In this document: positions 5,660 to 30,341 of the stretch, in pieces | How the letters are laid out: each line of letters opens with the position of its first letter | How positions within the stretch are numbered: position 1 is the first letter of the stretch | NCBI GenBank assembly: GCA_017856435.1 | Contig: JAFMFB010000022.1 | Location: forward strand, 1-39,353 | Source of the DNA: Burkholderiaceae bacterium | GTDB lineage: Bacteria; Pseudomonadota; Gammaproteobacteria; Burkholderiales; Burkholderiaceae_C | Length of the DNA stretch: 39,353 bases | Direction of reading: 5' to 3' | Notes under the pieces: model-generated | The model's input: only the letters and a program-made list of their open reading frames with translations | Told to the model about the DNA's origin: nothing | Database searches by the model: none | Translations under genes and position numbers: made by a program

Positions 5660-6631
5660 ATGAAAATTTTGCTGAAGCTGTGCCTGGCCCTTTGCGCCAC
5701 CGCCTTTTCTCTTGGCGCCCTGGCGCAATCTTCATTTCCTAACAAAACCATTCGGATCATCGTTCCTTTCCCCCCGGGGGGCGGCAATGATGTGATTGCC
5801 CGTGTCATCGCACAAAAGCTGGGTGAGAAGTACAACCAGCAGGTCGTTGTTGACAACCGTGCAGGTGCCAATGGCATTGTCGGATTGCAGGCGCTCATGC
5901 AGTCCGCACCCGATGGCTATACCGTTGCAGTCGCTGCGGCGGGTCCAATGGCCGTCAATCCGAGCCTCTATGACAAACTGCCCTACGACCCGATCAAGGA
6001 CTTTACCCCCATCACCAACTTGGTGAACTTTCCCTTGCTGCTGGTCACACACCCGTCCGTGCCGGCAAAAACGACTGAACAATTGGTCGCGCTGGCCAAG
6101 GCAAAGCCCAAACAGCTGTTCTTCGCCTCACCCGGTAATGGCAACTCGGGCCATCTCGCAGGTGAGTTGCTGAACAACATGGCCAAGGTTCAAATCGTGC
6201 ATGTCCCCTACAAAGGCCAGGGTCCGGCCATTTCAGATTTGCTGGCCGGACAGGTTCAGATGCTTTACAGCAGCATTCCATCCGTTTTACCGCAGGTGCG
6301 TAATGGTCAGCTCAACGCCATTGCAGTGGGTAGTGCGCGACGGATCCCATCCCTGCCAGACATACCCACCATCTCCGAATCAGGCGTACCCGGCTATGAG
6401 GCTTACTCCTGGGTCGGCCTGGTTGCCCCTGCCAAAACTCCGCGCGACATCATCCAGAAACTCAATGCTGACATCACGGAGATCCTCCGCCAAAAAGATG
6501 TGGCAGAGAAATTGGTCGGCCAGGGTGCATTGCCAGTTGGCGACACACCGGAACAATTCGGACAGTACATCAAAACCGAGATTGAAAAATGGGGTGCCGT
6601 GGTTCGTTCGGCCCATATCAAGATTGACTGA
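5660..6631 (+). CDS. Bug-family (TctC-like) periplasmic substrate-binding receptor
   Basis: Extracytoplasmic binding protein of 323 aa for a tripartite tricarboxylate transporter (TTT). A signal peptide ends at SLGALAQS. The mature protein starts FPNKTIRIIVPFPPGGGNDVIAR, the family's hallmark PPGGxxD motif, and continues with VDNRAGANGIVG, SAPDGYT and VPYKGQGPAISDLLAGQVQ. GGAG lies upstream of the ATG. No TctA/TctB membrane genes are nearby, which is common for Bug proteins in Burkholderiales. The gene follows the PcaR-like regulator and precedes a carboxymuconolactone-decarboxylase-like gene. The ligand is therefore perhaps an aromatic or dicarboxylic acid; this is inference. Confidence 0.92.
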   Translation: MKILLKLCLALCATAFSLGALAQSSFPNKTIRIIVPFPPGGGNDVIARVIAQKLGEKYNQQVVVDNRAGANGIVGLQALMQSAPDGYTVAVAAAGPMAVNPSLYDKLPYDPIKDFTPITNLVNFPLLLVTHPSVPAKTTEQLVALAKAKPKQLFFASPGNGNSGHLAGELLNNMAKVQIVHVPYKGQGPAISDLLAGQVQMLYSSIPSVLPQVRNGQLNAIAVGSARRIPSLPDIPTISESGVPGYEAYSWVGLVAPAKTPRDIIQKLNADITEILRQKDVAEKLVGQGALPVGDTPEQFGQYIKTEIEKWGAVVRSAHIKID

Positions 6632-17381: not shown

Positions 17382-18011
17382 CTAGGACTTTTTCTGGCCA
17401 ATCCGGGTTTCGGTGCCATTGATCAGGCGCCCGATATTCTGGGCGTGACGGTAGATCAACAGCAGGCTCATCACGCCCGTTGCCAACAGCACCGGACCGG
17501 CCATCACCCAGGCCACGCCGCCCCCAAAGAGGTAGTAGGCTGGCGCGAACAGGGCCGAAACCAGGGCCGCCAGCGAGGAGTAACGGGAAAAATAAGCCAC
17601 GATCACCCAGGTCATCAGGGTGGCCAGACCCAGCCACACCTCGAACCCAAGCAACACGCCCAACGCGGTGGCCACCCCCTTGCCGCCCTGAAACTTGAAG
17701 AATACCGGGTACAGATGCCCGGCAAAAGCCCCCATGCCCGCAAGCGCCAGCGTGCCCTCTTCCAGCCCATAAGGCTTACCGTACCAGCCCACCAGCGCCA
17801 CCGGCAGCCAGCCCTTGACGGCGTCGAGCAGCAAGGTCAGTACAGCCGCCTTTTTCGAGCCCGATCGCAACACATTGGTGGCCCCCGGGTTCTTGCTGCC
17901 GTAGGTGCGCGGGTCATTAAGACCCAGCACCCGGCTGACGATGACTGCAAAGGACAGCGAACCGATCAGATAGGCCAGCAGGCCGACCAACAATGGCATG
18001 ACAGTATTCAA
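17382..18011 (-). CDS. plsY: Acyl-phosphate:glycerol-3-phosphate acyltransferase PlsY
   Basis: Inner-membrane enzyme that transfers acyl groups from acyl-phosphate to glycerol-3-phosphate, the first step of phospholipid synthesis. The product is 209 aa with five or more hydrophobic segments. The three conserved loops are present: [40 protein letters not shown] and [14 protein letters not shown]. The TTG at 18011 is chosen because GGAG lies 8 bases before it. The ATG at 17999 lacks a properly spaced ribosome-binding site and would shorten the protein by four residues. It converges on yajQ with a 9-bp gap. Confidence 0.95.
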
Positions 18012-18997: not shown

Positions 18998-19945
18998 TCA
19001 ATAATCAGGCGTTGAACTTCTCGTGGCCAGAACTGCCAGGGCCACGGAGGCCAGACGTGACGGCACCGAATCGGCGCGCGAGGTCAACACAATCGGCACC
19101 TTGGCACCCAGCACCAGACCCGCGCAGTCGCCGCCGCCGATGTAGTTGAAGCTCTTGTAGAGCATGTTGCCGGCGTTCAGGTCCGGCATCAGCAGCAGGT
19201 CCGGATCGCCAGCCACCTCGGAGTCGATTTTCTTGATGCGGGCGGCTTCGGCAGAAATGACATTGTCAAAACCGAAGGGCCCTTCGATCACGGCGCCGGG
19301 CCAGGCACCATCGCGCGCCATTGCCACCAGCGCTTGTGCATCCAGGGTGGCGGCAATGGCCGGGTTGACGGTTTCCACCGCGGCCACAATGCCAACCTTG
19401 GGTCGTGAGACACCCAGCTGTCGCAGCAAGGCCAGCGCGTTGCTGAGGATGTCGCGTTTGGTCTTGAGATCAGGCTGGATGTTCACCACACAATCGGCCA
19501 GCGCCAGCAGCTTGTGATAGCGGGGCAGATCGAACAGAAAAGCGTGGCTGATGCGTCTGTCGGTACGCAGGCCCGCCGACTTGCTGACCACCGCTGACAT
19601 CAGTTCATCGGTATGCAGCGATCCTTTCATCAGGGCGCCGACGACGCCCTGCCTGGCCAGTTCGGCAGCGTGCTGGGCCGCCACCGCTGGGGCCGGGTCG
19701 GTGGCAATGATTTCAAAATCGTCGATCTCAATGGCGCTGTCATCCGCCGCACGCCGAATCAGATCGCGCCCGCCCACCAGCATCGGGCGCGCCAGTCCGC
19801 TGGCCGACATCTGTACCGCCACCTCCAGGGCCAAGCGGTCACACGGATGCACCAGCGCCAGCACCGGCGCCGACGCGTGGGTCGCGCGCCGGGCAGCGCG
19901 CTCGACCAAGGCGCTTAACCGGGGATGGGATGGCTGATCACTCAC
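18998..19945 (-). CDS. pta: Phosphate acetyltransferase-family protein (Pta/Ptb), linked to Xsc
   Basis: Phosphate acyltransferase of 315 aa, the PTA_PTB domain alone. It should convert acetyl phosphate, the product of Xsc, to acetyl-CoA. Motifs include VGALMKGSLHTDELMSAVVS, RISHAFLFDLPRYHK, PKVGIVAAVETVNPAIAATLDA, IEGPFGFDNVIS and LLMPDLNAGNMLYKSFNYIG with GAKVPIVLTSRADS. The GTG at 19945 has AAGG about 8 bases upstream. It lies 56 bp downstream of xsc on the same strand, the arrangement typical of sulfonate degraders. A phosphate butyryltransferase activity cannot be excluded from sequence alone. Confidence 0.88.
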   Translation of the reverse strand: MSDQPSHPRLSALVERAARRATHASAPVLALVHPCDRLALEVAVQMSASGLARPMLVGGRDLIRRAADDSAIEIDDFEIIATDPAPAVAAQHAAELARQGVVGALMKGSLHTDELMSAVVSKSAGLRTDRRISHAFLFDLPRYHKLLALADCVVNIQPDLKTKRDILSNALALLRQLGVSRPKVGIVAAVETVNPAIAATLDAQALVAMARDGAWPGAVIEGPFGFDNVISAEAARIKKIDSEVAGDPDLLLMPDLNAGNMLYKSFNYIGGGDCAGLVLGAKVPIVLTSRADSVPSRLASVALAVLATRSSTPDY

Positions 19946-20001: not shown

Positions 20002-21822
20002 CTAGACGTAGTCTTTGTATTTATCCAGGAAGCGAACCGGCTTGGACAGTGCGTCGCGACGGAAAGGGTCTCCCAGCTCACGGGTACACATGATTTCGAT
20101 CACGCAGGTCTTCTTCTGGTTCATCTGCAGATCGATCGCCTTTTTCAGCGCTGCACCAACCTGCTCGATATCGTCCACCACAATGCCTTCAGCCCCCATG
20201 CTTTGGGCAATTCCGGCAAAGCTCGGGCTCTCGAGTTCACCGGCGACAAAACGTCGGTTGTAGAAGTCAACCTGGTTTTTCTTCTCGGCACCCCATTGAC
20301 GGTTGTGAAACACCACGGCCGTCACCGGAATGTTGTGACGCACTGCCGTCATGATCTCGACCATGCTCATGGCCCAGGCGCCGTCGCCGGCATAGGCAAT
20401 GGCCGGGCGCTCGGGGCAGGCCAGCTTGGCACCAATCATGGTGGGCAGGGAGTAGCCGCAATTGCCAAAGCTCATCGGCGCAAAGAAGCTGCGCGGCTCT
20501 TCGAAGCGCAGGTAACTGTTGGACACCGCGTTGATGTTGCCGATGTCGGTGGACACCATGGCGCGCGGCGGCATGGCCTTTTCCAGTTCACGCAGGACCT
20601 GGCGCGGGTGCAGGTAGTGACCGCCGGCAAAGGTTTTCTCTCCCTTGGCCTCTTCGATCATGTCCAAGCTGTAGGCATCGCGCTCGTGGGTCCAGTCACT
20701 GAGCTCTTTTTCCCAGGCCGCTTTTTCTTCGGCAATCTTGCCGGCACGCGCGACCTTGGTGACATCGCAAACCAGGGTTTTGCCGGCCAGACGGGCCAGC
20801 AGGGCCTTGGCCACCGCCTTGGCATCGCCATGGATGCCAACATTGATTTTCTTGACCAGACCCAGGTTGGTGTGATCGGCCTCGACCTGGATGATCTTGG
20901 CGTCCTTGGGCCAGTAATCCATGCCGTGTTGCGGCAAGGTACCAAACGGACCCATGCGCGAACCCAGTGCGATCACCACATCGGCCTGGCTCATCAACTT
21001 CATGGCGGCCTTGCTGCCCTGATAACCCAGGGGACCCGCCCACAGGGGGTGGCTGGCCGGGAAACTGTCGTTGCGCAGATAGCCGTTGCACACGGGGGCA
21101 CCCAGACGTTCCGCCAGGGCCTGGCACTCCTGCACCGCGTCGCCAATCACCACGCCGCCGCCGGACAGGATCACCGGGAACTTGGCAGTTGCCAGCAACT
21201 CGGCCGCCGCGTTCAGGCTGTTTTCACCGCCCGCGCCACGCTCCACCCGCATCGGCTTGGGAATTTCACAATTGATCTCACCATAGAAATAATCACGCGG
21301 AATATTCAGCTGGGTCGGACCCATCTCGGACATGGCCCGATCAAAACAGCGCGCGGTGAATTCCGCCATACGCTTGGGATTGTTCACATGTCCCTGGTAC
21401 TTGGTGAACTCCTGGAACATGGGCAACTGATTGGCCTCCTGGAAGCCCCCCAGCCCCATGCCCATGGTGCCGGTCTCAGGCGTAATCATCACCACCGGGC
21501 TGTGCGCCCAGTAGGCCGCCGCGATGGCGGTCACGCAGTTGCTGATGCCCGGGCCGTTTTGTCCAATCACCACCCCATGGCGGCCACTGGCTCGGGCATA
21601 GCCGTCGGCCATATGGGCAGCACCCTGTTCATGCACCACGGGAATGAGGCGAATGCCTGCTGGTGCAAAAATATCCATGGCATCCATGAAGGCTGAGCCC
21701 ATGATGCCAAACAAGGTGTCAACACCCTGCGCAACCATGGTTTCAACAAAGGCCTCCGAAGGCGTCATTTTCTGGTTGCCACTCACGACGGTACGTGAAT
21801 GGATTGGCTGGGGCGCGTTCAT
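20002..21822 (-). CDS. xsc: Sulfoacetaldehyde acetyltransferase
   Basis: Thiamine-diphosphate enzyme: sulfoacetaldehyde plus phosphate gives acetyl phosphate and sulfite, the desulfonating step for taurine, isethionate and sulfoacetate. The product is 606 aa. Blocks characteristic of Xsc rather than acetolactate synthase are MTPSEAFVETMVAQGVDTLF, IMGSAFMDAMDIFAPAGIRL, VVHEQGAAHMADGYARASG (ThDP-activating Glu), IPRDYFYGEINCEIPKP and the ThDP motif GDGAWAMSMVEIMTA up to NRQWGAEKKNQ. The ATG at 21822 is chosen because GGAG lies 8 bases upstream; a TTG at 21843 is in frame but unsupported. Cytoplasmic; divergent from an IclR regulator that probably controls it. Confidence 0.94.
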   Translation of the reverse strand: MNAPQPIHSRTVVSGNQKMTPSEAFVETMVAQGVDTLFGIMGSAFMDAMDIFAPAGIRLIPVVHEQGAAHMADGYARASGRHGVVIGQNGPGISNCVTAIAAAYWAHSPVVMITPETGTMGMGLGGFQEANQLPMFQEFTKYQGHVNNPKRMAEFTARCFDRAMSEMGPTQLNIPRDYFYGEINCEIPKPMRVERGAGGENSLNAAAELLATAKFPVILSGGGVVIGDAVQECQALAERLGAPVCNGYLRNDSFPASHPLWAGPLGYQGSKAAMKLMSQADVVIALGSRMGPFGTLPQHGMDYWPKDAKIIQVEADHTNLGLVKKINVGIHGDAKAVAKALLARLAGKTLVCDVTKVARAGKIAEEKAAWEKELSDWTHERDAYSLDMIEEAKGEKTFAGGHYLHPRQVLRELEKAMPPRAMVSTDIGNINAVSNSYLRFEEPRSFFAPMSFGNCGYSLPTMIGAKLACPERPAIAYAGDGAWAMSMVEIMTAVRHNIPVTAVVFHNRQWGAEKKNQVDFYNRRFVAGELESPSFAGIAQSMGAEGIVVDDIEQVGAALKKAIDLQMNQKKTCVIEIMCTRELGDPFRRDALSKPVRFLDKYKDYV

Positions 21823-21857
21823 AAAATAATCTCCATAGGTCAAATAAATAAAAAACG

Positions 21858-21901
21858 AAACGATTTGTACCGTTTATTGAAATTTTGGCGTACTATACGC
21901 C
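21858..21901. promoter_or_regulatory. Inverted repeats between xsc and IclR regulator (candidate operator/promoter)
   Basis: Two symmetric elements lie in the 116-bp divergent intergenic region. The first, at 21858-21875, is AAACG, 8 bp, CGTTT. The second, at 21887-21901, is GGCGTA, CTA, TACGCC with perfect 6-bp arms. Both suit binding of an IclR dimer, and TACTAT within the second could be a rightward -10. An additional AAACG lies at 21853-21857. Confidence 0.5.
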
Positions 21902-21938
21902 ACCTCCACGCCACCGTCAACACTAAAGTTGCTGCCCC

Positions 21939-22760
21939 ATGAAACTGGTTCCCCACCCCGGCACCGAGCCCTCAGACTTCCAAAGTGACACGCCCGCACT
22001 GCGCTTGTTTGCCCTGCTGGAGCTGATGGCCAGCAAGGATCGTCTCTACAACTTGCAGGACCTGGTGGAAGAGACCGGTTATCCCAAACCCACCCTGCAC
22101 CGCATGTTGGGCCAACTGGAAGCGGCCGGACTGCTGCAGCGCGAGCAGGATGGACGCCACTATGGCACCGGGGTCAGGTTGCGCGCCCTGGCTGAAAACC
22201 TGCTGCTCAACAACACCCTCAACAGCGCTCGGCACCTGATCTTGCGGCAATTGGTGGAGGAGCTGGGTGAAAGCTGCAACATCACCACCCTGATCGGTGG
22301 TGAGGTGGTGTACTTGGACCGGGTTGAGACGGCCGCGCCCTTGCGCTTCTACCTGCATCCCGGCTCCCGGGTGCCGGCCCATTGCTCTGCCAGTGGCAAG
22401 CTGTTCCTGGCTAACATGAGCCCGGCGCAGCGACGCCGCCTGCTGGAGCAGACCCCGCTGCAAAGCTATACCGCCAAAACCCTGGTCAGCCTAAGCGCGC
22501 TGGAACAGGAGTTCCAACAGATCCGCCGTGATGGTTATGCCTTTGACGATGAAGAATTTCTGCCGGGCTTGCTCTGCCTGGCCGTGGGCGTGCCCTCGGC
22601 CCATGGACGTGCCAGCGTCTGCCTGGCGGTACAGGCGCCGATCCTGCGCAGCTCACGCGAACAAGCCCTGCGCTGGCTGCCTGCCCTGCAACGCGCTGCC
22701 AAGGCCCTGAGCCATATCGAGGATGAAACGTCCGCAGCGCCCCAAGCCAGCCGTGCCTGA
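21939..22760 (+). CDS. IclR-family transcriptional regulator, divergent from xsc-pta
   Basis: Regulator of 273 aa. An N-terminal winged helix ([20 protein letters not shown]; recognition helix [20 protein letters not shown]) precedes an IclR effector domain. The latter has [20 protein letters not shown], the [15 protein letters not shown] signature, and [19 protein letters not shown]. It faces xsc across inverted repeats and its TGA overlaps the ATG of the CobS-like gene (TGATG), so regulator and AAA+ gene are translationally coupled. The effector is probably a sulfonate or derivative (inference from xsc). Confidence 0.9.
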
Positions 22761-23755
22761 TGCCAGTGCAACCTGAACGACCCAACATGATGAACCAACC
22801 CGACCGCCTGCTCAGCGCCAAAGAAGTCTTTGGCATTGAAACCGACCTCATGGTGCCCGCTTTCAGCCAGCGCGATGAACACGTGCCTGAAATTGACAGC
22901 GTGTACCGCTTCAATCGCGAGGTCACCCTGGCTATTCTGGCGGGCTTCACCCACAACCGACGTGTGATGGTGCAAGGCCTGCATGGCACCGGCAAGTCCA
23001 CCCACATCGAGCAGGTTGCCGCGCGCCTGAACTGGCCCTGCGTGCGGGTCAACCTGGACGGCCATATCAGCCGACTCGACCTGGTGGGCAAGGATGCAGT
23101 GGTGATCAGGGACGGCCAGCAGGTTACCGAGTTTCAGGAGGGCATCGTGCCCTGGGCGCTGCAACGGCCAGTGGCCCTGATCTTTGACGAATACGATGCC
23201 GGCCGTCCCGATGTGATGTTTGTCATCCAGCGCATTCTCGAGCAGGGCGGCAAGCTCACCTTGCTGGACCAGAACCGGGTGCTTGACCCCAACCCCCACT
23301 TCAGGCTGTTTGCCACCTCCAACACCATCGGCCAGGGCAATATGAATGGCCTGTACCACGGTGCCCAACGGCTGAATCACGCCCAGATCGACCGCTGGAA
23401 CATTGTGGCCACGCTCAATTACCTGCCCCGCGAGGAAGAAATCGCCATCGTTGCAGCCCGTGTTCCAGCACTGGCCGGTGAAGCGCATCAGGCCTTGCTG
23501 AGCGCCATGCGCGCGGTGGCCGAGCTCACCCGCAAGGGCTTTGCCGCAGGCGACCTGTCCACCCTGATGTCGCCCCGCACCCTGATCAACTGGGCCGAGA
23601 ATCTGGCGATTTTTCCTGACCCAGCCCACGCCTTTCGGCTATCGTTTGTCAACAAGTGCGACGAGGCTGAACGGGCGGTGGTGGCTGAATATTTTCAGCG
23701 CTGCTTTGGCCGTGAACTTGACGAGTCGTTTGCGCTCCAGCCAGCGGGTCGCTAA
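22760..23755 (+). CDS. cobS: CobS-like AAA+ ATPase (aerobic cobaltochelatase subunit family)
   Basis: AAA+ ATPase of 331 aa, very close to genuine CobS in layout. It has the N-terminal [20 protein letters not shown], Walker [10 protein letters not shown] (residues 73-81), [20 protein letters not shown], Walker [41 protein letters not shown] and [13 protein letters not shown]. In cobalamin synthesis CobS and CobT form the ATP-driven complex that makes CobN insert cobalt. No CobN or other cobalamin gene is in the window. Related MoxR/VWA pairs (NorQD, CbbQO) act as activases for metalloenzymes and Rubisco. The start overlaps the IclR stop; an alternative ATG is at 22787. The gene symbol marks homology only; the function here is open. 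Confidence 0.85.
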
Positions 23756-23778
23756 GGCCGGCTGACCCTCCGCCCGCC

Positions 23779-25506
23779 ATGCGCGACATCCAGCAACAGG
23801 TGCGCCACCAGCAACGGGTGGAAGAACTCTGCGCCGCGTCGATACGCGCCTTGTCAGGTCAGGCAGATCTGCATTTTCGTGGCCATCACCTGCACCGCGG
23901 GCGCAAGCCGCTTCCGCTGTACGCGCCCCACCTGCATCCCGATATCGAGCGCGATGACTTCCTGACCTTTCGGGGTGCTGCCGATGGCCTGGCCTTGCGG
24001 CTGACCCACTCGGATGCGGCGCTGCATCGCGCCCTGTCACCCAGCGAGCCAGTGCAAAGCCTGGTCTTTGACCTGCTTGAACAGATCCGGGTCGAGTCCC
24101 TGGCCGACCCGGCCATGCCGGGTCTGCGCGAGAACCTGGCCCACAGCTTTGAGGCCTGGTCGCTAGCCTTTGTGGCCAGTGGGCTGGCCGACACCTCGCA
24201 TGGCATCCTGCTGTTTTGCGTCACCCAAATGTGCCGCGCCCGGGTGCTGCTCAGTCCGGTGCCCCATGCCATCGAGGATTTGCTGGAAAGTACACGTGCC
24301 GGCATTGGCCCCGTGATCGGGCGCGACATGCACGCCCTGCGCGTCACCCGCTTCGATCAGCAGGCCTACGCCCAGCACGCACGCAACATCGCACTGCAAG
24401 TGGCGCAGATGATGGCGGCATCGGCTGACGAAGAAAGCCGTGAGCGCCTCACCGCGCAGGCGCAGGAAGACATTGAGCGGGCAGCCTTCCGGCTGGTCAT
24501 GCAGGTCGGCAAAGACATGCCCGAACAGTTGCCCAGCGTGGTGACCGGGCGCAGCCGTCTGTTTGAGACCAGCCCGGATGGCTATCGGATCTTCACACAG
24601 GCCTACGACCGGGAGGTCCGGGCGCAGAACCTGGCGCGGCTGGGTGAACTCGTCCAACTGCGTGAACAGCTTGACCAACACATCGCGGCCCAGCACATCA
24701 ATTTTCCCCGGCTGGCCCGTGCACTCAAGAGCCTGCTGGCACAACCCCAGCGTGAGGGCTGGGACACCGCCCTGGAGGAAGGCCTGGTGGATGGCCGCCG
24801 ACTGGCCCAACTGATCAGCTCACCCACCGAGCGGCGCCTGTTCAAGCTGGAACGCCAGACACCTGTGGCCAACACCGTGGTCAGCCTCCTGATCGACTGC
24901 TCGGGCTCGATGCGTGAGCACCAGCCGTCAGTGGCGATGCTGGCCGATAGCCTGGTGCGGGCCCTGGAGCTGGCCGAGGTCCCCAGTGAGGTCCTGGGCT
25001 TCACCACTGGCGGCTGGCAAGGCGGACGGGCACAACGTGACTGGCTGCGCGCCGGACGTCCGCCGCACCCCGGTCGCCTCAATGAGCTCTGCCATATTGT
25101 CTTCAAGGATGTTCGAACCAGTTGGCGACAAGCCCGCACCGCCATGGCCGCCCTCCTCAAGGGGGACCTGTTTCGCGAAAGCATTGACGGCGAGGCGGTT
25201 GACTGGGCCTGCGCCCGGCTACACCGGCGCGAAGAGCCACGCAAGCTGCTGATCGTGATTTCAGACGGTTGCCCCATGGATGGCGCCACCAGCCTGGCCA
25301 ATGACGCTTTCTATCTGGACAATCACTTGCAGCAGGTGGTCCAGCGCCATGAGCGGGACAGCAGTATCGAAATTTTTGCCCTTGGCGTGGGGCTGGATCT
25401 GAGCCCCTACTACAGCCGCAGCCAGGCGCTGGACCTGTCTGCCTCGGCGGGCAACGCTTTGTTTGCTGAAGTGATCCAGTTGCTTGGACGGCGCATGCGA
25501 GCCTGA
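23779..25506 (+). CDS. cobT: CobT-like VWA-domain protein (aerobic cobaltochelatase subunit family)
   Basis: Protein of 575 aa and partner of the CobS-like ATPase, 23 bp downstream. The C-terminal von Willebrand A domain has a complete MIDAS (DCSGSM at residues 373-378, plus ISDGCPMDG). It shows CobT-specific blocks EVLGFTTGGWQGG, AGRPPHPGRLNELCHI, ESIDGEAVDWACARL and ALGVGLDLSPYYSR. A CobT-like N-terminal helical domain includes DLLEQIRVESLADPAMPGL. The long acidic linker that true CobT carries before the VWA domain is reduced to a short SADEESRERLTAQAQED stretch. The absence of CobN nearby and the position between sulfonate genes suggest a specialised paralogue rather than vitamin B12 synthesis. 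Confidence 0.84.
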   Translation: MRDIQQQVRHQQRVEELCAASIRALSGQADLHFRGHHLHRGRKPLPLYAPHLHPDIERDDFLTFRGAADGLALRLTHSDAALHRALSPSEPVQSLVFDLLEQIRVESLADPAMPGLRENLAHSFEAWSLAFVASGLADTSHGILLFCVTQMCRARVLLSPVPHAIEDLLESTRAGIGPVIGRDMHALRVTRFDQQAYAQHARNIALQVAQMMAASADEESRERLTAQAQEDIERAAFRLVMQVGKDMPEQLPSVVTGRSRLFETSPDGYRIFTQAYDREVRAQNLARLGELVQLREQLDQHIAAQHINFPRLARALKSLLAQPQREGWDTALEEGLVDGRRLAQLISSPTERRLFKLERQTPVANTVVSLLIDCSGSMREHQPSVAMLADSLVRALELAEVPSEVLGFTTGGWQGGRAQRDWLRAGRPPHPGRLNELCHIVFKDVRTSWRQARTAMAALLKGDLFRESIDGEAVDWACARLHRREEPRKLLIVISDGCPMDGATSLANDAFYLDNHLQQVVQRHERDSSIEIFALGVGLDLSPYYSRSQALDLSASAGNALFAEVIQLLGRRMRA

Positions 25507-25635: not shown

Positions 25636-26436
25636 ATGGATTCGACATTGGCCAAGGGGCTTGCCGTGCTGGATTGGCTCGCTCGTCAGCAACGCGACTG
25701 CCGGGTGATGGAGGTGGCCCAGGCCTTTGGCCTGGCTCGAAGCAATGCACACCGCACGCTGCAGACCCTGGTGGAATGTGGGTGGGCCGTCCAAAACCCC
25801 ATCACCAGTACCTACCGGCCCAGTCTGCGCCTGTTTGAACTGGGTGCGCTGGTGGAAGACGGGCTGGACCTCAAAGCCCTGATCCGCCCGCTGTTGGCCA
25901 GACTGGCGCAATCCAGCGCAGAGGCTATCCACCTGACCGTGCTTGAAGGCGCCGAAATCATCTACCTGGACAAGTTCGACAGCCCCTTGCCGGTAGCTGC
26001 TTACTCGCGCATCGGCGGTCGTGCGCCCGCCTATTGCATGGCCTCCGGTAAGGCGCTGCTGGCCGCACTTGGGCACGATGCCCAGTCCCTGCAGGCGCTG
26101 TTTGGAAAACTGCTGCCTCACACGCCCAACACCATCATCGACTTTCAAGCCCTGCATGCCGATCTGCAACGCACCCGCACTCGCGGCTGGGCCGAAAATC
26201 GGGAAGAGTGGCGTCTTGGCGTCTGCGGCCTGGGCGCGCCGGTGTTCAACGCCAGGGGCCAGCCCCTGGCGGCCATCGGCATGAGCGTCCCGTCGATCCG
26301 ATTTCAACGGGCCCAGGCCCGTACCCTGTCCGAGCAACTGATGGCTTGCGCCCGCGATGCCAGCCAGTTGTTGGGTCACCCCGACCGAAGCGAGTCCACA
26401 TCGCCCCATTTGATCCCAACCCAAAGGAGACTTTGA
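25636..26436 (+). CDS. IclR-family transcriptional regulator (SauR-like position)
   Basis: Regulator of 266 aa. Its winged helix is GLAVLDWLARQQRDCRVMEV then FGLARSNAHRTLQTLVECGW. The effector domain has LEGAEIIYLDKFDSPLPV, RAPAYCMASGKALLAALG and RTRGWAENREEWRLGVCGLGA. It is first in an operon with a Bug receptor and SauS- and SauT-like genes. Its TGA overlaps the next ATG by one base (TGATG). By position it corresponds to the regulator of sulfoacetate utilisation, but which ligand it senses is inference. The ribosome-binding site is poor. Confidence 0.88.
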   Translation: MDSTLAKGLAVLDWLARQQRDCRVMEVAQAFGLARSNAHRTLQTLVECGWAVQNPITSTYRPSLRLFELGALVEDGLDLKALIRPLLARLAQSSAEAIHLTVLEGAEIIYLDKFDSPLPVAAYSRIGGRAPAYCMASGKALLAALGHDAQSLQALFGKLLPHTPNTIIDFQALHADLQRTRTRGWAENREEWRLGVCGLGAPVFNARGQPLAAIGMSVPSIRFQRAQARTLSEQLMACARDASQLLGHPDRSESTSPHLIPTQRRL

Positions 26437-27428
26437 TGAAGCTACTTTCCTCCCGTCGCAAACCTCTCATCGCTGCCTTGTTGGCCTTGCTCGGCTTGGC
26501 GCAACCTATTGCCAGCCTGGCCCAGGCCGGCGCCTATCCGGACAAACCGATCCGCCTGTTGGTGCCCTACCCGCCCGGTGGTGGCACTGATGTGATCGCA
26601 CGCATCCTCCAAACCCCATTGCAGACTGTGCTGGGTCAACCCGTAATCATCGAAAACAAGGGTGGCGCCGGCGGCTCCGTCGGCACCGAGGTGGTCTCGC
26701 GCGCCGCACCCGATGGCTACACCGCCCTCTTCACCCTGAGTTCACACACTATCAACCCGGCGATCTACACCAAGCTGTCCTTTGATACGGTGCGCGACTT
26801 TCTGCCCGTCGGCATGGCAGCCTCCCTGCCGCAAATCCTGGTGGCCAATCCGCAAGTTCCTGCCAACACCGTGGCTGACATGGTGAAGATGGCCAAGGCC
26901 CAACCGGGTGCTATTTCTTACGCCTCGGTGGGTAACGGCTCACCAGGCCACTTGGCTGGTGAACTCTTCAACATCCGTATGGGTGTCAAGACCGTTCATG
27001 TTCCCTATCGTGGCGGTGGCCCGGCTGTGACCGATGTTATGGGCGGACAAGTTCCCTTCCTGTGGGTTTCGATTCCGGCAGCTGCCCAGTTCGTCAAGAG
27101 CGGCAAACTCAAAGCGCTGGCAGTGTCCACGCTCAAGCGCAGCGCCGCTTTCCCAGATGTCCCTACCATGCAGGAAGCCGGTGTCCCTGACTTTGAAGTC
27201 GACTCCTGGTATGCCATGTTCGTACCGGCCAAAACCCCACGGCCCATCATCGACAAGCTCAACGCGGCACTGAACAAGGTCCTGGCTGACCCGGCGGTCA
27301 AGGAAAAGCTGCTGGCCCAGGGTAGTGAAGCCGTGGGTGGCACCCCTGAAGCCCTGGGCAAGGTGGTGGCCGACGAATTGCCCAAATGGGCCAAACTGGC
27401 CAAAGACGCCAACATCAAGGTCAATTGA
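26436..27428 (+). CDS. Bug-family (TctC-like) periplasmic receptor in the sulfoacetate-type operon
   Basis: Periplasmic binding protein of 330 aa. Signal peptide MKLLSSRRKPLIAALLALLG through SLAQAGA, then YPDKPIRLLVPYPPGGGTDV, IENKGGAGGSVGTEVV, AAPDGYTALF, HLAGELFN and VPYRGGGPAVTDVMGGQVPF, all TctC/Bug hallmarks. AAGGAG lies 8 bases before the ATG. It lies between the IclR gene and the SauS-like gene with almost no gaps. It is therefore the probable uptake receptor for the CoA-activated acid, presumably sulfoacetate. No TctA/TctB partner is visible here; it may share membrane components encoded elsewhere. Confidence 0.92.
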   Translation: MKLLSSRRKPLIAALLALLGLAQPIASLAQAGAYPDKPIRLLVPYPPGGGTDVIARILQTPLQTVLGQPVIIENKGGAGGSVGTEVVSRAAPDGYTALFTLSSHTINPAIYTKLSFDTVRDFLPVGMAASLPQILVANPQVPANTVADMVKMAKAQPGAISYASVGNGSPGHLAGELFNIRMGVKTVHVPYRGGGPAVTDVMGGQVPFLWVSIPAAAQFVKSGKLKALAVSTLKRSAAFPDVPTMQEAGVPDFEVDSWYAMFVPAKTPRPIIDKLNAALNKVLADPAVKEKLLAQGSEAVGGTPEALGKVVADELPKWAKLAKDANIKVN

Positions 27429-27429
27429 A

Positions 27430-28848
27430 ATGAGTTCAGCAGTCAGCGAAGACGTTGTTGCCACGGTGGAGCAACTCATCGCCCGCGCCCGCGCTGCCCA
27501 GCGCGTGGCCGAGGGCTATGACCAGGCGCGGGTGGATGAGCTGGTGGCCGCCGCAGGATGGGCCATCATCGAGCCGGCGCGCAACCGTGAACTGGCCGAG
27601 CTGGCCGTTGCCGACACCGGCATTGGCAATGTCGAGGACAAGGTCCGGAAAAACTATCGCAAGACCTTCGGACTGCTGCGTGACCTGCAAGGCGCCAAGT
27701 CGGTGGGGGTGATCCGTGAAGACCCCGTCAAGGGCCTGACCGAAATCGCCAGGCCGGTGGGCGTGGTGTGCGCCATCACTCCGTCCACCAACCCGGCGGC
27801 TACTCCGGCCAACAAGATCATCAACGCCCTCAAGGGCCGCAACGCGGTAATTGTGGCGCCATCCCCCAAAGGGTGGGCTACCAGCCAACGCCTGATTGAG
27901 TTCATCCATGGCCAGTTCGACCGCATCGGTGCTCCGCGTGACCTAGTGCAACTGCTGCCCTCGCCGGTCAGCAAGGCCGCCACCCTGGAGCTGATGCGCC
28001 AAAGCGATCTGGTGGTGGCCACCGGATCGCAGGCCAATGTGCGCGCAGCCTACACCTGCGGCACGCCCGCCTTCGGTGTGGGGGCCGGCAATGTGGCGGG
28101 CATCATCGATGAAACCGCAGATATCCAGTTGGCCGCAGACCGTGTCCTGCGCTCCAAAACCTTCGACAACGCCACCAGCTGTTCCTCTGAAAACAGCCTG
28201 GTGCTGATCGAAGCCATTCGGGATAGAGCCATCGCTGCGCTGTGCCAGCGCGGCGCCGTCCTCCTCAACACCGAACAAAAAGCCCGGTTGCAGGCCCTGA
28301 TGTGGCCACAGGGAAAACTGTCACCAGCGGTCACCGGCCAATCGGCCCAAGTGGTGGCAGAGCGCGCTGGCCTGAGCGAGATTGCCCAACGCGCGCCCAC
28401 CATGTTGCTGGTTGAGGAAGACGGTTTTGGCCCCGCACATCCCTTCTCCGGAGAAAAGCTCTGCCCGGTCCTGACTCTGTACCGGGCCAGGGATTTCAAC
28501 GATGCGGCCGCTGTTGTCCAGAAAATCTATGCCTACCAGGGCGCTGGCCACTCGGTCGGGCTGCATAGCACCAAGCCCGAACGCGCTTTGCAACTTGGCC
28601 TGACGCTGCCGGTGTCGCGCGTGATTGTTGACCAGGCCCATTGCATCGCCACCGGCGGCAGCTTTGACAACGGCCTGCCGTTCTCCCTGTCCATGGGCTG
28701 CGGCACTTGGGGTAAGAACAATTTTTCCGACAACATGAATTACCGCCACTACCTGAACATCACCCGCATCTCTCGCCCGATTGCCGAGAACATGCCCACT
28801 GAGCAGGCCATCTTTGGCGACTACTTCGAGAAATACGGCCAGGCATGA
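27430..28848 (+). CDS. sauS: CoA-acylating aldehyde dehydrogenase, sulfoacetaldehyde dehydrogenase-like (SauS)
   Basis: Aldehyde dehydrogenase superfamily member of 472 aa in the CoA-acylating branch. The catalytic cysteine is Cys251 in SKTFDNATSCSSENSLVLI. The cofactor region includes GVVCAITPSTNPAATPANKI and GAGNVAGIIDETADIQLAAD, and the C-terminal part TGGSFDNGLPFSLSMGCGTW is typical of this branch. The proposed reaction is NAD(P)H-dependent reduction of sulfoacetyl-CoA to sulfoacetaldehyde, the substrate of the nearby Xsc. The ATG at 27430 is one base after the Bug stop, and AAGG lies about 9 bases upstream. It overlaps the following ligase gene by 4 bp. The symbol rests on family plus context; other acyl-CoA substrates are possible. 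Confidence 0.78.
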   Translation: MSSAVSEDVVATVEQLIARARAAQRVAEGYDQARVDELVAAAGWAIIEPARNRELAELAVADTGIGNVEDKVRKNYRKTFGLLRDLQGAKSVGVIREDPVKGLTEIARPVGVVCAITPSTNPAATPANKIINALKGRNAVIVAPSPKGWATSQRLIEFIHGQFDRIGAPRDLVQLLPSPVSKAATLELMRQSDLVVATGSQANVRAAYTCGTPAFGVGAGNVAGIIDETADIQLAADRVLRSKTFDNATSCSSENSLVLIEAIRDRAIAALCQRGAVLLNTEQKARLQALMWPQGKLSPAVTGQSAQVVAERAGLSEIAQRAPTMLLVEEDGFGPAHPFSGEKLCPVLTLYRARDFNDAAAVVQKIYAYQGAGHSVGLHSTKPERALQLGLTLPVSRVIVDQAHCIATGGSFDNGLPFSLSMGCGTWGKNNFSDNMNYRHYLNITRISRPIAENMPTEQAIFGDYFEKYGQA

Positions 28849-30341
28849 GCTCCACGGTTCGCACGCTGATCGATCAGCAGGCCGTGCTGCGGCCTCAGGC
28901 CCTCTACGCCACTGATGGCGAGGGCCAGTCCACCCTGAGTTACGCCGACCTGGCGCGTGCCTGCCATCAGGTTGCTGCCCTGCTGCTGGCGCACGGCCTG
29001 CAACCCGGCGACACAGTTTCCCTCGTCATGCCCAATGGTCTGCAAACCTTGCGCCTGCTGCTGGGCGCGATGTATGGCGGCTGGTGCGTCAACCCGATCA
29101 ACCTGCTGTCCCAGCCGGAGCAGATGCGCTATGTGCTGGAGCACTCCGACTGCAAGATGGTGATCGTCGGCCCGGAGTGGGAAACACCCATACGCGCCAT
29201 GCTGTCCGATATTGGTCGGCCAGTGGCGGTCTGGGTCAGCGCGCCAGACGCGGATTGTCTGCCCGAGCAGACGGCCCAGACGCCGCCACCCCCGGCTGAC
29301 CGGCTGGCCCTGCTGATGTACACCTCAGGCACCACTGGCAAACCCAAGGGGGTGATGCTGACCCAGTCCAATCTGGCAGCCAACGCCCACGCCATCTCCC
29401 AGGAACACGGGCTGGTGGCAGGCGACCGGGTGCTGGCGGTGCTCCCGCTCTACCACATCAATGCCTTTGCGGTGACCATGCTGGCGCCGCTGGCCCACGG
29501 GGGCAGCCTGGCCATGCCCCCGAAGTTTTCTGCTGCCCGCTTCTGGGCGCAGGCGATCGAGCGCGAATGCACCTGGATCAATGTGGTGCCCACCATGATT
29601 TCCTACCTGCTCGAAGGCGAGGCGCCCGATAAAGCGCGCACCTCACGCATCCGCTTTTGCCGGTCGGCCTCGGCCGCCCTGCCGCCTGAACACCTGCGCG
29701 CGTTCGAGCGCAAATTTGGCATTGGCATCATCGAGACCATGGGACTGACCGAGACTGTGGCCCCATCATTTTCCAACCCGCTGGATCCCGCGCAGCGCAA
29801 GGTTGGTGCCGTGGGCCGCGCCTCGGGCTGTGAAGCCCAGGTGATTGACGGTGACCTGCGCCCGGTGCCTGACGGTCAGACTGGCGAAATTGCCATCCGC
29901 GGTCCCAATGTGATGCGCGGCTATTACAAGAACGACGAGGCGACCCGCTCGTCCTTCACCCCCGACGGCTGGCTGCGCACCGGCGACCTGGGCCATCGTG
30001 ACAGCGACGGTTTTTTCTTTGTGACTGGACGAATCAAGGAGCTGATCATCAAGGGCGGTGAAAACATCGCCCCGCGCGAGATCGATGAGGCCTTGCTGCA
30101 GCATCCTGCCATTCTTGATGCCGCGGCGGTGGGCATCCCGGATCGCCACTATGGGCAGGACATCATGGCCTGTATCGTGCTGCGGCCCGAACAGTCACTG
30201 GATGAACCTGCTCTGAGGGATTTCTGCCTGAGTCACCTGGGCCGCTACAAAACCCCCAAGGTATTTCACTTTGTTCAGGAGCTGCCACGCGGCCCCTCGG
30301 GCAAGGTGCAGCGACTCAAACTGCTGGACATGGTGGCCTGA
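28845..30341 (+). CDS. sauT: AMP-forming acyl-CoA ligase, sulfoacetate-CoA ligase-like (SauT)
   Basis: ANL-superfamily ligase of 498 aa. Motifs are the P-loop YTSGTTGKPKGVM (from residue 159), the A5-type METMGLTETVAPSF seen as ETMGLTETVAPSF, GWLRTGDLGHRDSDGFFF, the hinge GRIKELIIKGGENIAPREID and the C-terminal catalytic lysine in GPSGKVQRLK. The proposed role is ATP-dependent activation of sulfoacetate with CoA. It starts inside the sauS stop (ATGA overlap), so the two enzymes are coupled. It is the last gene of the operon, followed by a hairpin and convergent ybaK. The substrate is inferred from linkage to acylating dehydrogenase, xsc and pta. Confidence 0.78.
   Translation: MSSTVRTLIDQQAVLRPQALYATDGEGQSTLSYADLARACHQVAALLLAHGLQPGDTVSLVMPNGLQTLRLLLGAMYGGWCVNPINLLSQPEQMRYVLEHSDCKMVIVGPEWETPIRAMLSDIGRPVAVWVSAPDADCLPEQTAQTPPPPADRLALLMYTSGTTGKPKGVMLTQSNLAANAHAISQEHGLVAGDRVLAVLPLYHINAFAVTMLAPLAHGGSLAMPPKFSAARFWAQAIERECTWINVVPTMISYLLEGEAPDKARTSRIRFCRSASAALPPEHLRAFERKFGIGIIETMGLTETVAPSFSNPLDPAQRKVGAVGRASGCEAQVIDGDLRPVPDGQTGEIAIRGPNVMRGYYKNDEATRSSFTPDGWLRTGDLGHRDSDGFFFVTGRIKELIIKGGENIAPREIDEALLQHPAILDAAAVGIPDRHYGQDIMACIVLRPEQSLDEPALRDFCLSHLGRYKTPKVFHFVQELPRGPSGKVQRLKLLDMVA

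Follow-up and report, generated by a model that had tools for sequence, protein, structure and literature searches.

The window analysed here, a stretch of 39,353 nucleotides that makes up one whole contig (JAFMFB010000022.1) of a 2.57-Mb Burkholderiaceae draft genome (97 contigs, 98.87% complete), carries adjacent genes for a CobS-like AAA+ ATPase and a CobT-like protein with a von Willebrand factor A (VWA) domain. This pair is almost certainly a non-B12 system associated with xsc, the gene for sulfoacetaldehyde acetyltransferase (Xsc), and is probably an unrecognised helper that keeps this enzyme working. Xsc is a central enzyme in the breakdown of taurine, isethionate, and sulfoacetate; it depends on thiamine diphosphate (ThDP) and splits sulfoacetaldehyde into acetyl phosphate and sulfite. 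The first-pass annotation of the window had proposed a non-B12 CobST subtype tied to sulfonates, with a possible client encoded elsewhere, such as a sulfite-handling metalloenzyme. The former part is upheld by the data below, and the latter appears less likely than action on the adjacent Xsc, because one Xsc clade is the best-shared catabolic partner of the pair.

Architecture of the gene pair

The two genes are intact open frames in the string iclR-cobS-cobT, in which the stop of iclR overlaps the start of cobS (TGATG, 22758-22762) and 23 bases separate cobS from cobT. The overlap ties the pair to the IclR-type regulator divergent from xsc, as had been noted before. The CobS-like protein matches the Pfam families CobS_N (3e-15) and AAA_5 (6.5e-11), and the CobT-like protein matches CobT (3.5e-27) and CobT_C (1.4e-47). 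Walker A, Walker B (IFDEYDA), DCSGSM, LGFTT, and VISDG can all be read in the pair, and we take these to be the Walker motifs and the metal ion-dependent adhesion site (MIDAS), which is complete in the CobT-like protein; the earlier claim of full ATPase and MIDAS motifs is therefore correct. An AAA+ gene with Walker A and B thus adjoins a gene for a VWA protein with a complete MIDAS, which is the arrangement of MoxR AAA+/VWA pairs, where the ATPase ring is the motor and the VWA protein is the adaptor.

Co-occurrence with xsc and independence of CobN

The association with xsc was examined in 399 genomes of the window's family, with xsc and CobT-like genes searched in the same set. The former was found in 50 genomes and the latter in 46; all 46 CobT-like genomes contain xsc, 46 of the 50 xsc genomes contain a CobT-like gene, and none of the 349 xsc-less genomes does so. 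Fisher's test gives p = 4e-56 for this near-perfect co-occurrence, a value not corrected for kinship, and counting by genus gives CobT-like genes in 25/141 and xsc in 27/141. The two genes lie on one contig in 42 of the 46 genomes, 1.2-3.3 kb apart (a distance that ends at the VWA-coding part of cobT), and on different contigs of draft assemblies in the remaining four (G493, G703, G706, and G730). In G723, one of the xsc genomes without a CobT match, cobS lies next to xsc where the contig breaks off, which makes this genome a 47th candidate for the pair. The conserved linkage to sulfonate genes, whose absence the first-pass annotation had named as a counter-argument, is evident here and again in the loci that were picked by CobT, as described below.

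CobN, the third component of the B12 cobaltochelatase CobNST, does not follow the pair. At a threshold of E <= 1e-50, a match to the CobN family (PF02514) is present in 19 of the 46 pair-bearing family genomes and absent in 27, and it is as common (26/69) in xsc-less genomes without the pair; since PF02514 includes Mg-chelatase, these counts are upper bounds and true CobN may be rarer. The window's own genome has no PF02514 match, in agreement with the first-pass annotation, which had described the pair as standing without CobN. That annotation had also reported no cobalamin gene nearby, and none was found among the other proteins of the window (33 scanned, with the window ends and a frame at 17382-18011 left out); this is weak evidence alone, because cobN lies away from cobST also in all four other-class genomes that have a B12-type CobT and known positions for both (G790, G911, G963, and G1145).

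Divergence from the B12 cobaltochelatase

Both proteins score below the equivalog cut-offs of their B12 families, the CobS-like protein with 510.6 bits against 558.55 for TIGR01650 and the CobT-like protein with 326.9 bits against 759.05 for TIGR01651, and no CobT above the cut-off was found in any of the 399 family genomes. The B12-type CobT reference consists of five sequences that exceed the cut-off, taken from genomes of a different class. Compared to these, the CobT that accompanies xsc (the xsc type) has a shorter and less acidic linker, as had been remarked from the window alone: in the part that corresponds to residues 200-284, the medians are 84 residues with 18 acidic ones in the xsc type (n = 75), as opposed to 123 residues with 46 acidic ones in the B12 type (n = 5). 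In a tree of 89 CobT rows, which was built by a quick method and has some rows flagged for long branches, all 75 xsc-type rows fall on one side of a long branch (Shimodaira-Hasegawa-like approximate likelihood ratio test support 100), and the other side holds the five B12-type and nine mid-scoring rows. Single residues follow the same division; the MIDAS loop of the xsc type has Cys374 where all 14 other CobTs have Asn, and Gly101, Asn194, and His207 of its CobS replace the Ser, Asp, and Gln found in each of the 13 others. The mean identity to B12-type CobST decreases from 66% in the AAA part (five B12-type CobS) to 43% in the VWA domain, 22% in the N-terminal half of CobT, and 13.5% in the linker, so that the motor appears better conserved than the adaptor, which fits a motor turned to a new client.

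The mid-scoring CobTs in other genomes from the window's class were considered as a second orphan system, and this idea was dropped because they group with B12-type CobT. Five genomes from that class (G118, G215, G239, G379, and G290) have a CobT that groups with the B12 type and no CobN match at E <= 1e-50; they may be incomplete drafts or may put CobST to another use.

The Xsc clade that travels with the pair

The pair accompanies one clade of Xsc, and is not needed by Xsc generally. In a comparison of 129 Xsc sequences, from which 14 of the 50 xsc genomes in the family sample were left out, all 90 sequences from pair-bearing genomes share 76.9% identity or more with the Xsc of the window. 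Among the 39 from genomes without an xsc-type CobT, 34 are at most 68.3% identical to it (30 sequences from 29 genomes belong to a distant type of 44-48%, and four to a group of 59-68%), and five are close relatives. Within the clade, the pair is thus usual and not absolute. The class and phylum samples contributed 43 xsc genomes from outside the family, of which seven have an xsc-type CobT, 20 a CobT over the cut-off, seven only a mid-scoring CobT, and nine none; one of the first group, G290, has a mid-scoring copy in addition. Three of the seven outside xsc-type CobTs lie within about 3 kb of xsc. In the class sample (185 genomes), each of the three xsc-type CobTs comes from a genome with xsc, and the remaining six matches are mid-scoring.

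The C-terminus of Xsc was considered as a possible mark of the client. The ending KY[KRQ]D[YF][VT] is present in 89 of the 89 readable ends from pair-bearing genomes, and elsewhere in one of the two close Xsc from outside the family, in one of the four sequences of the 59-68% group, and in none of the 30 of the distant type, which has a C-terminal tail of another sequence. This motif is suggestive only, because pair-associated Xsc is about 80% conserved throughout and no position separates pair-bearing from close pair-less sequences. A residue signature marking the pair was also sought and rejected, since none of the positions that are at least 90% fixed in the 90 pair-bearing Xsc differs in all five close pair-less ones. 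A structure model of Xsc had a mean predicted local distance difference test score (pLDDT) of 68.4, with values under 50 for residues 582-606, and was not accepted as a guide to the tail.

Gene content of the loci

A scan of the window's CobT against contigs of one genome per species gave 66 loci (44-76% identity), which together with the window make 67 loci picked regardless of xsc. An xsc gene is present in 54 of them, 53 of these within 5 kb of cobT (median 1.85 kb, maximum 5.3 kb). CobS is encoded in the same locus in 66 of 67 cases, with the gene truncated at the end of the contig in L011 and L039; the remaining locus, L013, belongs to the genome also seen as G493, whose cobS adjoins xsc on another contig. 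The genomes of 12 of the 13 xsc-less loci were searched for Xsc, and six have an Xsc over the cut-off and one a partial match. The source organisms of the loci include Paraburkholderia, Caballeronia, Ralstonia, Cupriavidus, Alcaligenaceae, Rhodocyclales, and Pseudogulbenkiania, as well as Pseudomonas saliphila, Enterovibrio, and Halomonas, in which no Xsc was found. Named carriers are C. terrestris and C. humi (L020 and L024), Pseudogulbenkiania ferrooxidans 2002 (L021), and Paraburkholderia sacchari LMG 19450 (L062).

No catabolic gene is common to more of the loci than xsc. A taurine-type FAD (flavin adenine dinucleotide) oxidoreductase occurs in 39 loci, an isethionate-type GMC oxidoreductase with an MFS transporter in 27, and SauS in 13, in overlapping sets, and 17 loci have none of these within the stretch examined; the labels taurine-type and isethionate-type are our assumption from family resemblance (several matches are below the cut-off) and general knowledge. 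There are 42 loci with genes of the pta/ptb type and 56 with IclR genes, the latter being of several kinds and not a uniform group. A helper specific to the taurine, isethionate, or sulfoacetate enzymes was set aside, since the pair occurs with each gene set.

Several other genes recur near the pair. TauE-type genes are present in 17 of the 67 loci. Genes of the Lin0512 family (PF09585, function unknown; one member tested) are present in 16, often directly behind cobT, and two paralogues stand there in tandem in L036:11836-12559, L068:9367-10084, L019:3244-4033, and other loci; one member matches PDB 3c8l, described as an 'FtsZ-like protein of unknown function' (5e-13). SoeABC-like molybdopterin oxidoreductase genes, with a large subunit, an iron-sulfur subunit, and a DmsC-type anchor (tested for the L057 copies), lie near the cluster in L012:493-5223, L020:16762-21403, and L057:16223-20869, with a fragment in L043, and are perhaps a sulfite oxidation system. 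ThiG stands beside the cluster in seven loci, namely upstream of iclR-cobST in L027, L050, L051, L056, L065, and L076, and further in L074:4663-5463 (the L050 and L074 copies were tested); a ThiO-like gene is present in six of these seven (tested in L065, below the cut-off). ThiG and the ThiO-like gene occur together in six Alcaligenaceae loci and ThiG in one Thauera locus, which would fit cofactor repair but may be chance or an old Alcaligenaceae neighbourhood. A CobW/COG0523-type gene is found in 17 loci (only L073:1-792 tested), in most cases at the border of the sequence examined, on the upstream side of the sulfonate genes. The genome Sulfuritalea UWPOB_SULF1 (L018 and L036) has two cobT and two xsc copies.

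Gene neighbourhood in the window

The features around the pair are collected in Table 1. The genes downstream of the pair (IclR, TctC-type, sauS, and coenzyme A ligase) are a sulfoacetate cluster, in which the ligase is presumably sauT, a name given by position and general knowledge. The window has two TctC-type binding proteins (5660-6631 and 26208-27428), and neither TctA nor TctB was seen among the 33 proteins scanned.

Table 1. Features of the xsc and cobST region of the window.
Feature	Coordinates	Strand	Details
Phosphate acetyl/butyryltransferase-like gene	18998..19945	-	PF01515
xsc, sulfoacetaldehyde acetyltransferase of the pair-associated clade, proposed client	20002..21822	-	TIGR03457 1030.9 bits vs cut-off 676.4; C-terminus KYKDYV
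Intergenic stretch, xsc and iclR divergent	21823..21938	.	116 bp
IclR-type regulator, first gene of the iclR-cobS-cobT string	21939..22760	+	TGATG overlap with cobS
CobS-like AAA+ (MoxR-class) ATPase, proposed motor	22760..23755	+	331 residues; CobS_N + AAA_5
CobT-like adaptor	23779..25506	+	575 residues; helical N-half, shortened linker, C-terminal VWA with MIDAS; PF06213 + PF11775
Second IclR-type regulator, ahead of sulfoacetate genes	25636..26436	+	Pfam match
TctC-type solute-binding protein	26208..27428	+	PF03401; open reading frame as listed, true start probably downstream
sauS, acylating sulfoacetaldehyde dehydrogenase	27424..28848	+	NF047625 764.3 bits vs cut-off 600
AMP-forming acyl-coenzyme A ligase, sauT position	28845..30341	+	PF00501 3.8e-87

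Proposed mechanism

As in MoxR AAA+/VWA pairs that remodel a client, the pair is genetically linked to a candidate client enzyme, and by this analogy we lean, though not strongly, towards Xsc as the client of an ATP-driven CobS/CobT-like remodelling pair that serves as an activase or cofactor helper. The pair would then be a dedicated AAA+/VWA machine of sulfonate degradation, kin of the CobST half of cobaltochelatase and uncoupled from B12. The CobS-like protein could form an ATPase ring on which the CobT-like protein docks, gripping the neighbouring ThDP enzyme Xsc via its MIDAS, and ATP-driven pulling could open Xsc so that Mg-ThDP is loaded or an inactivated cofactor or inhibitor is expelled, by which Xsc would stay active. 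In a simpler version, the action would be confined to the loading of Mg-ThDP or the removal of a tight inhibitor.

Xsc might need such help perhaps because it releases sulfite, which cleaves thiamine. This cleavage is documented for thiamine generally (PMC8839250), and sulfite made in the active site of Xsc might attack ThDP in the same manner. A more specific version, in which the pair is an Xsc activase that clears sulfite-killed ThDP and hence the counterpart of rubisco activase in thiamine-enzyme repair, is unlikely in our estimate. In that case, Xsc molecules whose cofactor is cleaved or trapped would be recognised by the motor via the MIDAS of CobT and the C-terminus of Xsc, and would then be pried open for fresh Mg-ThDP to enter.

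Several observations weigh against a role of the pair on Xsc. Three family genomes, G409 and G512 (single-contig) and G711 (a draft), have an Xsc that is 83-84% identical to that of the window and no CobT match, as do G067/G208 from outside the family with 76.5% identity; because a close Xsc occurs without CobT in these genomes, this Xsc is not strictly dependent on the pair. No replacement AAA+/VWA pair was found in G409 and G512 among the 10 of their neighbouring proteins that were scanned. The three family exceptions all keep the C-terminal motif of Xsc, and no fixed Xsc position differs in all three of them, just as none does in all five close pair-less sequences. Outside the family, two of the seven xsc-type CobTs lie at about 21 and 28 kb from xsc (G1088 and G1016) and two on another contig (G072 and G290). 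Furthermore, no Xsc was found in five of the 12 searched genomes of xsc-less loci; the contigs of these five (L024, L032, L039, L041, and L070) end after pta or TauE, where xsc comes next in relatives, and these ends offer an explanation, with true absence not disproved. Finally, the contrast in conservation between motor and adaptor is partly general, because B12-type CobTs among themselves are also most variable in the N-terminal half (42% identity, against 83% in the VWA domain), which is a milder form of the same gradient.

Alternative explanations

The alternative that survives best, although we regard it as a minority possibility, is that the pair serves another sulfonate-pathway protein or a fate of sulfite and follows xsc as a marker of sulfite release; a maturing molybdenum sulfite dehydrogenase, a TauE-type exporter, and the Lin0512 protein are example clients that share this modest probability jointly. 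The SoeABC-like genes near four clusters (one a fragment) and the TauE-type and Lin0512 genes in 17 and 16 loci, the latter often directly behind cobT, are consistent with it, as is the maturation of metalloenzymes by MoxR/VWA pairs like NorQD (PMC13036017). None of these genes is as widespread as xsc, however, and 33 genomes with distant Xsc types lack an xsc-type CobT although sulfite release would be expected from their pathway; the absence of the pair from all 349 xsc-less family genomes also argues against it.

It is improbable that the linkage is that of a passenger, an iclR-cobS-cobT cassette that horizontal transfer moved along with xsc and that has a loose functional tie to it. The cluster is patchy, with CobT_C in two of 26 genomes of the window's genus, as such transfer would have it. 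However, neighbours and gene order differ between the groups in which the pair adjoins xsc (Burkholderiaceae, Rhodocyclales, Alcaligenaceae, Pseudogulbenkiania, Pseudomonas, and Enterovibrio), and its ATPase and MIDAS motifs show little or no variation across the aligned rows (21 CobS and 33 CobT). The idea that the pair is a normal CobST and forms the B12 cobaltochelatase with a CobN from another locus, for which the 66% identity of the AAA part and the CobN-family matches in 19 of 46 genomes might speak, is close to refuted by the CobN distribution, the equivalog cut-offs, the linker, and the separate side of the CobT tree.

Implications and related literature

If Xsc is indeed the client, many Xsc clusters would contain an unrecognised ATP-driven component that family models place in cobalamin biosynthesis, and B12-pathway predictions that count cobS/cobT would need correcting. 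The Xsc of the pair-associated clade would have to be studied together with the pair, and for the MoxR/VWA field, a CobST-type motor working without CobN would become available with a client that is soluble and easy to assay.

In the full-text literature, judged by titles and abstract starts among the matches listed and with most subscription papers outside the coverage, no publication linking CobS/CobT with xsc was found, and an earlier mention elsewhere is possible. PMC4334477 and PMC3087415 mention both CobS/chelatase and sulfoacetaldehyde, in unrelated passages. The main text of a transposon sequencing paper on Caballeronia insecticola with taurine as carbon, nitrogen, or sulfur source (PMC10809759) does not contain cobalamin, cobS, cobT, chelatase, sulfoacetaldehyde, or tauX, and the available portions of PMC6829993 and PMC9857259 have nothing on the pair.

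Comparison with known AAA+/VWA systems

The closest relatives of the pair among solved structures are the CobS and CobT chains of CobNST (PDB 9ujv and 9uka; 2.7e-140 and 1e-80, respectively), which have the same domain order, with CobS_N and AAA_5 in one protein and CobT and CobT_C in the other. Unlike CobNST, the pair falls under both cut-offs, has a shorter and less acidic linker, forms its own branch, and does not track CobN. The CobS-like protein scores 470.6 bits with the CobS chain, as opposed to 35.2 and 34.9 with CbbQ and 25.3 with NorQ, and it is thus not a member of the CbbQ/NorQ subfamily. RavA-ViaA is also an AAA+/VWA pair reported to act on enzymes, but it is not among the structure matches of either protein.

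For the predicted fold of the CobT-like protein (mean pLDDT 78.8, predicted template modelling score 0.53, loose at residues 220-259), the best among the matches listed is the VWA domain of NorD in complex with NorQ (E 1.7e-08), and the MIDAS of MDN1 is also among the closest folds. A CobT structure is absent among the best 50 fold matches listed, and the structure library may have none. NorQD, as described in PMC13036017, drives metal insertion that matures a metalloenzyme; unlike the proposed system, its client is the nitric oxide reductase cNOR and its job is iron insertion, and NorQ is only remotely related to the CobS-like protein (8.8e-05).

CbbQ is likewise only a distant relative (8.9e-08), and action on Xsc in the manner of CbbQO would be an analogy. 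CbbQO resembles the pair in combining a MoxR-class ATPase with a MIDAS-VWA adaptor and in serving a central enzyme that is inhibited in its active site. According to PMC4660213, it reactivates inhibited rubisco, which requires MIDAS residues, an acidic surface residue, and the C-terminus of rubisco, and the rubiscos associated with CbbQO share a special C-terminal motif. The proposed system would be similar in this respect, with Xsc in the place of rubisco as the client with a special C-terminus.

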